Of a stretch of 64,000 bases of DNA, positions 8,157 through 11,438 are shown in pieces. The stretch's first letter is position 1, and each line of letters begins with the position of its first letter. The DNA comes from Sphingobacterium daejeonense (GTDB taxonomy: Bacteria; Bacteroidota; Bacteroidia; Sphingobacteriales; Sphingobacteriaceae). The notes beneath the pieces were generated by a model. That model was given only the letters and a program-made list of their open reading frames with translations, did not search any database and was not told where the DNA came from. The position numbers were made by a program, and so were the translations under genes. The DNA lies in the NCBI RefSeq assembly GCF_901472535.1, contig NZ_LR590470.1, positions 2,976,001 through 3,040,000 of the forward strand, read 5' to 3'.

Positions 8157-8189
8157 GTTGGGAAGAGATTAGCAAGATGGGTTTGCCAT

Positions 8190-8226
8190 CCATGGCAGAG
8201 GTGCAGTTACTTTTGAGGCGCAGAAG
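8190..8226. repeat. 37-base direct repeat, copy 1
   Basis: Begins CCATGGCAGAGGTGCAGTTA and matches 8343-8379 at all but one base. The mismatch (CAGAAG here, CAAAAG in copy 2) destroys the hairpin that copy 2 can form. Confidence 0.85.
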
Positions 8227-8232
8227 GACGCC

Positions 8233-8256
8233 ATGGTTGGTGTCCCCACCAACCAT
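8233..8256. repeat. hairpin, 10-base perfect arms
   Basis: ATGGTTGGTG (8233-8242) and CACCAACCAT (8247-8256) are exact complements around a 4-base loop, TCCC (GGGA on the minus strand). Compare 8505-8528, which has the same stem with a compensated base-pair change. Confidence 0.85.
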
Positions 8257-8342
8257 CTTCAGCTAAGTGTGCTCAAGTTTTTAGCGTTAGGCAATGCGCT
8301 GGAAAGTCCTAATCTAATTAACACAAATTACTATTAGCCATT

Positions 8343-8383
8343 CCATGGCAGAGGTGCAGTTACTTTTGAGGCGCAAAAGTAAC
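8343..8383. repeat. 37-base direct repeat, copy 2, with hairpin
   Basis: Second copy of the repeat at 8190-8226. Its end forms a perfect hairpin: GTTACTTTTG (8359-8368) pairs with CAAAAGTAAC (8374-8383) around a 5-base loop. Confidence 0.85.
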
Positions 8384-8471
8384 CAAAACGCTTGCTCATT
8401 TAAGGTGGCTTGTCGCGCAATTCCAACGCTCATGGACAAAATGCCTTATTGCCGAGGATGCCGTTCTAATA

Positions 8472-8496
8472 AATTATCTCTTTGGAGGAGATAATT
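8472..8496. repeat. hairpin, 9-base perfect arms
   Basis: AATTATCTC (8472-8480) and GAGATAATT (8488-8496) are exact complements with a 7-base loop. It lies 8 bases before the next hairpin. Confidence 0.8.
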
Positions 8497-8504
8497 GATT
8501 TTCA

Positions 8505-8528
8505 GTGGCTGGTGGAGACACCAGCCAC
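8505..8528. repeat. hairpin, 10-base perfect arms, GAGA loop
   Basis: GTGGCTGGTG (8505-8514) and CACCAGCCAC (8519-8528) pair perfectly around GAGA, a GNRA-type tetraloop. The core GG(T/C)TGGTG...CACCA(A/G)CC is shared with 8233-8256. Confidence 0.85.
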
Positions 8529-8537
8529 GGCGAAAGG

Positions 8538-8645
8538 GCAAGGCCACCCCTCAAATGCCGCGGCATTTTATCCATTCTTCCGCCACTGGAAATGAGCGGA
8601 AGTCGGCTTTGAATTATCATCGACTCTTAGGCTAGGTGGCCTTGC
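8538..8645. repeat. long-range inverted repeat enclosing smaller palindromes
   Basis: GCAAGGCCACC (8538-8548) is the exact complement of GGTGGCCTTGC (8635-8645). Inside lie the 12-base palindrome ATGCCGCGGCAT (8555-8566) and the hairpin arms CTTCCGC (8577-8583) and GCGGAAG (8596-8602). The nested arrangement suggests a folded RNA or a palindromic DNA element. Confidence 0.75.
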
Positions 8646-8834
8646 CTTCGGCTGAGGGGAGACATGCCTTCGGATGGACTTGTGCGTTAGCCTGCGCTTC
8701 GGCTCCGCTCAGCGACCGGCTTCCGGCTTCGTTAAGAGATCGGTGTCTAAAATGTGTAAGTGTTTAAAGTTTAGGTCTGGCGGTGTTTGAAACTATATAG
8801 TCGTCTAAATACTAAATACTCTCTACTAAATACT

Positions 8835-8868
8835 AAAAAAGCTGCTTGGGAAACCAAGCAGCTTTTTT
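8835..8868. terminator. bidirectional rho-independent terminator after clpC
   Basis: GCTGCTTGG (8841-8849) pairs with CCAAGCAGC (8854-8862) around GAAA. Six A's before and six T's after the stem give a U-tract in either direction. It lies just past the clpC stop on the minus strand. Confidence 0.92.
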
Positions 8869-8873
8869 AAATT

Positions 8874-11438
8874 TTAATCTTTTTTCTTGTTGTTCTTGAC
8901 ATCTGATGCCAGTGAAGAGTCATCGTCTTTTTTGGTCTTTAGCGGCCGAGACGACAATTTCTTTTTTGTCATCGTCATAGTCTACCAAGATGGTCTCGCC
9001 GGACTTAAGTTCTCCTTTCAGGATTTCCTCGGCAATTGGATCTTCTAGGTATTTCTGGATGGCACGTTTCAAAGGTCTTGCACCAAAGTTACTGTCATAG
9101 CCTTTTTCAGCAATGTAGTTTTTGGCAGTTTCGGTCAAGTTTATTTTGTGACCTAGTCCTTCGATACGAGCAAACAATGATCTTAAGTTCGATATCAATA
9201 ATCTTGAAGATATGCTCTTTTGTTAATGAGTTGAATACGATTACATCATCGATACGGTTCAAGAATTCTGGAGCGAACGCACGTTTCAATGCTGTTTCGA
9301 TCACTCCTCTTGAATGCGAGTCAGCTTGATTTTCTTTGGCAGCCGTAGTAAATCCTACACCTTGTCCAAATTCTTTCAATTGACGGGCACCAATATTCGA
9401 AGTCATGATAATGATCGTATTCCTAAAGTCTACCTTGCGTCCAAGACTATCTGTTAATTGTCCTTCATCCAAAACTTGTAATAACAAGTTGAATACATCA
9501 GGGTGAGCTTTTTCGATCTCATCCAACAATACAACAGCGTATGGTTTACGGCGTACTTTTTCGGTCAACTGACCACCTTCTTCATAACCAACGTATCCTG
9601 GAGGCGCACCTACTAAACGAGATACGGCAAATTTCTCCATATACTCACTCATGTCGATCTGGATCAATGCATCTTCAGAATCAAACATAAAACGAGCAAG
9701 CTCTTTAGCTAATTCTGTTTTACCCACCCCTGTAGGACCTAGGAATATAAATGATCCAATAGGTTTTTTAGGGTCTTTTAGTCCAGCACGAGTACGTTGA
9801 ATTGCTTTCACCAATTTTTGAACAGCGTCATCTTGACCAATGATTCTTCCTTTCATGGAATCACCCATGTTCAATAATTTCTGGCTGTCAGATTGGCTAA
9901 CACGTTGAACAGGAATACCGGTCATCATTGAAACAACTTCAGCAACATTATCTTCTGTTACTGTATAGCGTTTCGTTTTGGTTTCCGCTTCCCAAGCTGC
10001 TTTTTCTTTTTCAAGTTCTTCGATCAATTTCTTTTCAGTGTCACGAAGTTTAGCTGCTTCTTCATACTTCTGGCTACGAACAACCTTGTTTTTCTCCACT
10101 TTTACTTCTTCGATTTTCTCTTCGATATCGATGATGCTCTGCGGAACATGGATATTGTTCAAGTGTACACGAGATCCTGATTCATCCAAAGCATCGATTG
10201 CTTTATCTGGCAAGAATCTGTCTGTGATATATCTTGTGGTTTAGGGACACACAAGCATCAATAGCTTCAGGAGTATAAGTTACGTTGTGATGTTCTTCAT
10301 ATTTATCTTTGATACGGTTAAGGATTTCGATCGTATCATCGATTGAAGTTGGTTCTACAGTAACTTTTTGGAAACGACGGTCCAAAGCACCGTCTTTCTC
10401 AATATATTGGCGGTACTCATCAAGAGTTGTTGCACCAATACATTGGATTTCTCCACGTGCCAAAGCAGGTTTGAACATGTTTGAAGCATCTAACGAACCA
10501 GATGCACCACCAGCACCTACGATAGTATGTATCTCATCAATAAATAAGATTACATCTGGTGATTTCTCCAATTCATTCATAACTGCTTTCATACGTTCCT
10601 CAAACTGTCCTCTATATTTAGTTCCGGCTACCAATGATGCCAGGTCTAAAGTAACGACACGTTTGTTGAAGAGCACTCTAGAAACTTTTCTTTGGATGAT
10701 TCTTAATGCAAGACCTTCAGCGATTGCTGATTTACCTACACCAGGTTCACCAATTAAAATAGGGTTGTTCTTCTTTCTACGCGAAAGAATCTGCGAAACC
10801 CTTTCGATTTCTTTTTCACGCCCTACGATAGGATCCAATTTTCCTTCTTCTGCGGCTTTAGTCAAGTCTCGTCCGAAGTTATCCAAAACCGGGGTTTTAG
10901 ATTTAATGTCAGATACTTTCTTAGGGGATGAAAATTGTGAATCTTCATCAGCGTATTCATCTTCACCACCAGAAGGGGTGTTAGAAGCTTCATCCGTTAT
11001 GCCAGTAGCATTTTGTTCGACTTCAGATTTGAACACGTTATATGAAACATTGAATTGCTGTAAGATTTGTGATGCGATGTTTTCTTCATCGCGTAGAATC
11101 GCTAACAATAAATGCTCGGTTCCAATAATATCACTTTTAAAGATTTTAGCTTCCAAATAAGTAATTTTCAAGACCTTTTCGGCTTGTTTGGTCAGAGGCA
11201 TGTTACTGATTGGGGATCGTGAAACGGAAGAACCTTTCACAGCATCCTCCACCGACTGGCGTACTGCGCCCATGTCAACGCCGATATTTTTCAATACCTT
11301 AATTGCCACTCCATCGCCCTCACGTATTAATCCCAGCAATAGATGTTCGGTACCGATATAATCGTGACGTAAGCGCAATGCTTCTTCGCGACTATAGGAG
11401 ATAACATCTTTAACTCGGGGTGAAAATTTTGCTTCCAT
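8874..11438 (-). CDS. clpC: ClpC/ClpA-type AAA+ unfoldase, three frameshifts
   Basis: ATP-dependent unfoldase that feeds proteins to ClpP. Domains in order: double Clp-N repeat (residues 1-145, starting MEAKFSPRVKDVISYSREEA), first AAA+ module with Walker A GEPGVGKS and Walker B LFIDEIHT, a UVR-type middle coiled coil, second AAA+ with GPTGVGKTELAK and VVLLDEIEKAH, and the Clp D2-small domain. Three surplus bases break it: a T in the run 10240-10242, a T at 9183-9184, and an A (minus strand) near 8942. Removal gives SLTTRYITDRFLPDKAIDA, DIELRSLFARIEG and a lysine-rich C-terminus ending KNNKKKD at 8874. Repaired length about 850 residues. clpP and clpX lie far away at 60904-62860. Confidence 0.96.

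Follow-up and report, generated by a model that had tools for sequence, protein, structure and literature searches.

Oriented hairpin repeats of Sphingobacterium daejeonense as probable REP elements of a RAYT transposase

Two small hairpins located in the analyzed stretch of Sphingobacterium daejeonense DNA (64,000 nucleotides; contig NZ_LR590470.1, positions 2,976,001 to 3,040,000; referred to as the window) are very probably REP elements of a RAYT (TnpA_REP), namely, non-autonomous repeats that are read as folded single-stranded DNA. RAYT is a HUH-tyrosine transposase related to the transposases of IS200/IS605. This assignment is based on a repeat family with a common fold, a one-sided tag, an intergenic placement, and absence from relatives, together with a RAYT gene inside an array of these REPs, where a relative has an empty site, and a like arrangement at RAYTs of this type across Bacteroidota. 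The hairpin units are presumably mobile.

Unit 1 (8229-8256 of the window, minus strand) consisted of the stem ATGGTTGGTG/CACCAACCAT, the loop GGGA (on the minus strand), and the tag GGCG; on the plus strand, the tag appeared as CGCC (8229-8232), followed by ATGGTTGGTG-TCCC-CACCAACCAT (8233-8256). Unit 2 (8505-8532, plus strand) consisted of the stem GTGGCTGGTG/CACCAGCCAC, the loop GAGA, and the tag GGCG at 8529-8532. A covariance model of the family (R1) matched both, at G000:C1:2984229-2984256 and G000:C1:2984505-2984532, respectively (G000 being the genome of S. daejeonense). A preliminary description had placed the hairpins at 8233-8256 and 8505-8528, where both were found; these coordinates were right but spanned 10-bp stems, of which the quoted arms were the inner 8 bp. 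The T-A/C-G pair reported as the single difference between the stems was present, but the outermost pair also differed in both arms (A-T versus G-C). GNRA-type loops, also proposed there, were found in these two copies (GGGA and GAGA), but the label failed for the family, in which the loop was (R)RGA (also AGGA, AAGA, and TGGA). On the other hand, the suggestion that the two copies are opposite-orientation forms of one folded unit was supported by a single oriented repeat family, with the loop fixed on one strand and the tag on one side.

Both units were contained in an intergenic tract of 714 nt (8160-8873, not assigned to a strand), the neighbors of which were a 160-aa ORF with a 2-hydroxyacid dehydrogenase domain (PF00389; 7652-8134, minus strand) and clpC (8920-11438, minus strand), distributed over three frames (8920-9198, 9107-10213, and 10203-11438). 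The matching gap in G029, the closest relative tested, was 169 nt, and this genome was without any copy of the repeat; its ClpC segment was 99% identical to that of the window, the nearest among 29 other genomes in that search. Beside unit 1, at 8189-8226 and 8342-8379, lay two direct copies of a 38-nt sequence (TCCATGGCAGAGGTGCAGTTACTTTTGAGGCGC...) with 97% identity and partial self-complementarity, and a long hairpin, AAAAAAGCTGCTTGG/CCAAGCAGCTTTTTT, at 8827-8876, right after clpC, was a likely terminator.

When read with the loop ending in GA, the 28-nt unit was N-T-GGTTGGTG-(R)RGA-CACCAACC-A-N'-GGC(G): a 10-bp stem (N-T-GG-NN-GGTG and the complementary arm), followed by a one-sided tag of GGC and usually G or A. 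Each of the three positions of the 3' GGC was kept in 91-94 of the 98 exact-stem copies with no pairing partner on the 5' side, and the flanks outside the unit were approximately random in the same copies. Since the 3' tag has no 5' partner, the unit is oriented, copy 1 of the window being minus and copy 2 plus. The exact-stem pattern that the preliminary description had proposed for a genome search, GGYTGGTG-N4-CACCARCC, was found at 99 places in the 4.73-Mb genome, far more than the two copies from which it was drawn (exactly 2 occurrences in the 64-kb window), and the same pattern read backwards gave 0. A looser pattern (TGGNNGGTGNNGACACCNNCCANGGC) gave 149 matches in this genome and none in the 98 related genomes searched, of which 59 were congeners and 39 belonged to the same class, and model R1 gave at least 151 units in this genome. 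The family thus had the features by which REPs are recognized: a short palindrome in many, mostly extragenic copies, with a conserved tag on one side of the hairpin foot. Half-units comprising only the right half and the tag (e.g. GGGACACCAACCATGGCG) were found in short runs adjoining whole units (L031, L037, L049, and L057 of this genome).

The stem variants were GGTTGGTG (89), GGTCGGTG (17), GGCTGGTG (14), GGCAGGTG (6), and GGCGGGTG (1), in a tally that pooled stretches of the genome with the window, such that the two window copies were perhaps counted twice. Among 75 distinct copies, both-sided changes were observed for pair 1-24 in 33, pair 5-20 in 21, and pair 6-19 in 20, and for one further pair in a single copy. 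The arms remained complementary, with standard pairs in 96.1% of the pair cells, and the covariation score was 0.281, versus 0.103 when shuffled and at most 0.071 with the partners slid. Since the units are related copies, this covariation shows that the pairing was kept, and not the number of changes. A G-quadruplex reading of GGTTGGTG was set aside because the partner arm and the covariation show a hairpin; this octamer is also contained in the thrombin aptamer, which was the main subject of the literature matches for GGTTGGTG, and nothing on the present repeat was found among the matches listed.

Two RAYT-like genes were found in this genome, one RAYT2 and one RAYT1. RAYT2 (G000:C1:2532158-2532703) was open except for one in-frame TGA at codon 16, and was surrounded by an array of 18 units, the 3 upstream units all being minus and the 15 downstream units switching between plus and minus with a period of ~118. 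The genes bordering this block of 1640 nt (1.64 kb) encoded an MFS transporter and a 200-aa protein. Their counterparts in G029 were separated by 68 nt, RAYT2 and the array being absent, and no RAYT2 was seen between the matching genes of the congener G052. These empty sites could be deletions in the relatives instead of insertions in S. daejeonense. A Pfam search with RAYT2 gave no family at 1e-3. In NCBIfam, REP_Tyr_transpos (NF047646, cut-off of 80 bits) was exceeded by RAYT1 (87.2) and not by RAYT2 (69); RAYT2 and its homologues L079 and L080 scored 62.7-69 bits, yet this was the best family for them. The best match of a profile of six RAYTs was the solved TnpArep 4er8 (E 1.1e-7). The HUH and catalytic tyrosine motifs were both present, N59, H60, H62, W115, and Y136 being invariant in six aligned proteins; the motifs were NHVH, WQ, and YIHKNP in RAYT2, and NHIH, WQ, and YMHNNP in L080. 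The multiple copies of a transposase gene that mark an IS200/IS605 insertion sequence were not found, with one gene each of RAYT2 and RAYT1.

Because of the in-frame TGA of RAYT2, the family may have lost its activity, unless the stop is an assembly error or RAYT1 substitutes for RAYT2. Several conserved genes were frameshifted in this assembly: clpC and the MFS transporter were each split over three frames, and a second Clp-type ATPase had an open frame of 592 aa versus ~870 in relatives (sites of the split genes: window 8920-11438, 151-1444 of L040, and G000:C1:2650420-2651337). The many frameshifts are perhaps assembly errors of this genome, and sequence errors are therefore possible, the stop of RAYT2 included.

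An open reading frame that was intact (G000:C1:4490727-4491269) and a score over the NCBIfam cut-off make RAYT1 the other candidate for the enzyme that mobilized these REPs, in place of RAYT2, and two further observations are in its favor. One imperfect unit of the hairpin family was located 258 nt upstream of RAYT1. Furthermore, in 16 of the 149 hairpin units, the RAYT1-side motif ACTTGCGCTAGC (at most 3 mismatches) started exactly 22 nt before the unit, while any other offset was found in at most 3 units each; part of the family thus spreads, or has spread, as a composite of the hairpin and the RAYT1 repeat. However, RAYT1 was flanked on both sides, in inverted orientation, by a different repeat of its own, ACTTGCGCYRGC (G000:C1:4490506-4491390, L065), which occurred at 21 places in this genome and at 27 in G052, a congener carrying a RAYT1 relative with 59% identity. 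Moreover, no hairpin of the kind in the RAYT2 array was found at the RAYT1-type loci L067, L068, and L069, and the array surrounded RAYT2 only. We therefore regard mobilization by RAYT1 as unlikely, and RAYT2 as the probable partner of the hairpins. In the window, a tentative degenerate copy of the ACTTGCGCYRGC-type repeat, recognized by eye, abutted unit 1 (8257-8282, minus strand); with 4 mismatches to the motif, it was omitted from the composite count.

Only 3 of 153 units were located in ORFs of at least 150 aa, versus 52% of the surrounding sequence, and 21 of 153 in ORFs of at least 100 aa, versus a background of 63%. The units formed 64 clusters; the genes on either side were tandem for 31 of these, convergent for 16, and divergent for 4, while 12 clusters fell within an open frame of at least 90 codons and 1 was at an edge; the corresponding background of neighboring gene pairs overall was 24 divergent, 35 convergent, and 123 tandem. 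An intergenic placement that is rarely between divergent genes (4/64), together with the maintenance of pairing, would also be expected if the hairpins acted in RNA, at transcript ends or in mRNA protection, and were selected by the host, the association with RAYT being incidental; REPs elsewhere are reported to affect transcripts in the parts of the two sources considered (PMC6006769, PMC3733652). This is nevertheless very unlikely. Only 13 of the 149 units had a TTTT, on either strand, at a distance of up to 8 nt from the stem, so that ordinary intrinsic terminators were dropped as an explanation; an Rfam search gave no family at the gathering score, and the repeat was absent from 59 congeners. 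Neither the presence of a tag on one side only nor the RAYT2 arrays would be explained by an RNA role. The five weak, sub-threshold Rfam matches all fell at approximately 8755-8885, near the terminator-like hairpin and away from both units, and an Rfam RNA identity was dropped. A GNRA RNA tetraloop was likewise abandoned as the common feature because AGGA, AAGA, and AGA loops were common. Overall, the evidence favors a single-stranded DNA fold that is read by a transposase over an RNA tetraloop. Chance or a low-complexity artefact was refuted by the 99 exact copies against none in the backwards control, although in the window by itself the test was suggestive and not decisive (with up to 3 mismatches, shuffles of the window gave a mean of 0.28 matches, and 2 or more in 3 of 100), the genome-wide copy count being decisive.

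An alignment of three RAYT2-type proteins was used to scan 84,980 named genomes, and the best 80 of the 392 relatives obtained were analyzed. At least one such hairpin was found near 73 of these 80 loci, and none in the near flanks (400 nt upstream and 460 nt downstream) of the other 7. In total, the near flanks of the 80 genes (66.9 kb) contained 194 hairpins of at least 8 bp, whereas 63.2 kb of sequence farther out contained 5 and block-shuffled flanks a mean of 0.75; a GTG/CAC top and a loop ending in GA or starting with TC were present in 175 of the 194. The nearest upstream unit was minus in 62 of 67 cases and the nearest downstream unit plus in 61 of 67, an inverted arrangement in which the tags point away from the RAYT gene. 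The common form of 199 oriented units was NNGGTNNGTG-(R)RGA-CACNNACCNN, with positions 6-7 and the tag being variable, and 3-nt loops (AGA/GGA) were found in relatives. The tag was GGC at 41 of 73 loci; units of the TG, CG, and GT stem classes typically had TAG/TAA, and those of the CT class GGA. The stem class (positions 6-7) required 13 changes on the RAYT tree versus 28-33 when the labels were shuffled 200 times, as counted on a tree restricted to the named rows, with 72 of the 80 loci labelled (L135, with 5 stops, and the 7 loci without a hairpin being omitted). A separate tree with four extra rows (RAYT1, L079, L080, and RAYT2) had very long branches for these, with unsure placement, and the stem labels of three of them were set by hand. 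That the stem class tracks the RAYT tree could reflect joint inheritance and not a recognition code.

Of 16 genomes reached via RAYT loci, 14 carried a generic form of the unit, with 1 to 85 sites per genome, and S. daejeonense carried it at 104; the sample was 17 of the 80 loci, chosen mostly as named records with 4-nt loops, and was reduced to 16 when L112 was dropped. The unit was absent from 2 of the 16 RAYT genomes and from all 10 congeners without RAYT2, and the backwards control gave 0 in all 29 genomes. The generic pattern gave no match in G033 (same genus) and G088, though both carry RAYT2 relatives; the hairpins near these genes had the same layout with other stem letters.

In E. coli, Stenotrophomonas, and Marinomonas, according to the portion of the study considered, TnpA_REP recognizes the REP in its folded, single-stranded form and on one strand only, uses a tetranucleotide 5' of the hairpin as well as loop or stem features, and cuts beside the REP (PMC8266576). 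By analogy, the present RAYT would bind the hairpin on the strand reading 5'-YGCC-hairpin (loop TCYY). The conservation of the GCC tag suggests that it takes the place of GTAG as the guide, and that of the GTG/CAC top and loop that they may be the handle for RAYT; from the same pattern, the two variable stem pairs (positions 6-7) may set which RAYT reads which REP. RAYT is predicted to cut beside the hairpin, and single units or inverted pairs would be moved or copied into other intergenic sites. We tentatively extend this to a hairpin code of Bacteroidota RAYTs, which is possible but doubtful as a whole: the GTG-RRGA-CAC top would be a constant handle, and stem pairs 6-7 with the 3-nt tag a variable address differing between RAYT clades (TC, TG, GA, GC, CG, CT, GT, and GG classes), giving mutually exclusive hairpin-transposase pairs; in this genome, moreover, two systems would have been fused in a fixed composite of the RAYT1 repeat and the RAYT2 hairpin.

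Most work on REPs has been done in Proteobacteria, and GTAG is regarded there as their hallmark. Although the kind of element is already known, the definition of its architecture and the change of stem and tag from clade to clade appear to be additions, the shared design (a GTG-RRGA-CAC top with a GGC/TAR/GGA tag) being what is added here. This design provides a searchable definition for Bacteroidota REPs and, with it, dozens of naturally occurring pairs of RAYT and hairpin in which the differing stem positions are known, so that how a RAYT picks its own REP becomes a swap experiment. With ~150 copies in this species and not one in 59 congeners, the genome also offers a case in which a REP invasion could be dated and its rate measured.

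Among known systems, the present RAYTs are best read as RAYT/TnpA_REP subclass 2.6 (Bertels group 5), which they resemble in protein type, phylum, length (~180 aa), and HUH and YIHxNP motifs, as well as in genes flanked by secondary structures that are copied elsewhere in the genome and lack GT[AG]G (PMC6006769). This subclass, in the sections of that study considered, comprises 63 proteins, mostly from Bacteroidetes, and its flanks are described as "atypical secondary structures" without GT[AG]G, with a weaker secondary structure and copies elsewhere in the genome (PMC6006769). The fit is by description, and that to its tabulated motifs (NH[LIV]H, WQ, and YIH[QN]NP) was close, not exact. The published structures are weaker and without a consensus in the same sections (PMC6006769), whereas perfect 10-bp stems with a common top, loop, and tag were found here. 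No printed consensus for these hairpins was found in the literature searched; the supplement of PMC6006769 (Table S1), outside this scope, may contain such hairpins.

The present units also resemble GTAG REPs, as characterized in the portion of the survey considered, in being palindromes of 20-40 nt with a one-sided tag, intergenic, present as dimers in both orientations, and with a RAYT nearby, but differ in carrying GCC (or CTA/TTA or TCC), and not GTAG, 5' of the hairpin (PMC3733652); no GT[AG]G tag was found at this position. The taxa for which that survey reports GTAG REPs are Proteobacteria, Cyanobacteria, Chloroflexi, and PVC (PMC3733652). CGTC REPs, from the same portion, have similar stems (8-9 bp) and loops (4-5 nt) and also occur in Bacteroidetes, but have the tag CGTC, stems beginning with AT, and no dedicated transposase, whereas a RAYT was tied to the hairpins here (PMC3733652). 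Inverted pairs and regular alternating arrays are shared with REPIN/BIME, although 36 of the 149 present units (stretches of this genome) stood alone, neighbors within 400 nt occurring in every orientation. Pairs were also found in Niabella drilacis (G101, L101), where the unit occurred at many sites, largely as a REPIN-like element: a fixed inverted pair that combines a GTCAG-type with a GTTTG-type stem and in which the two tags face each other at a distance of ~4 nt.
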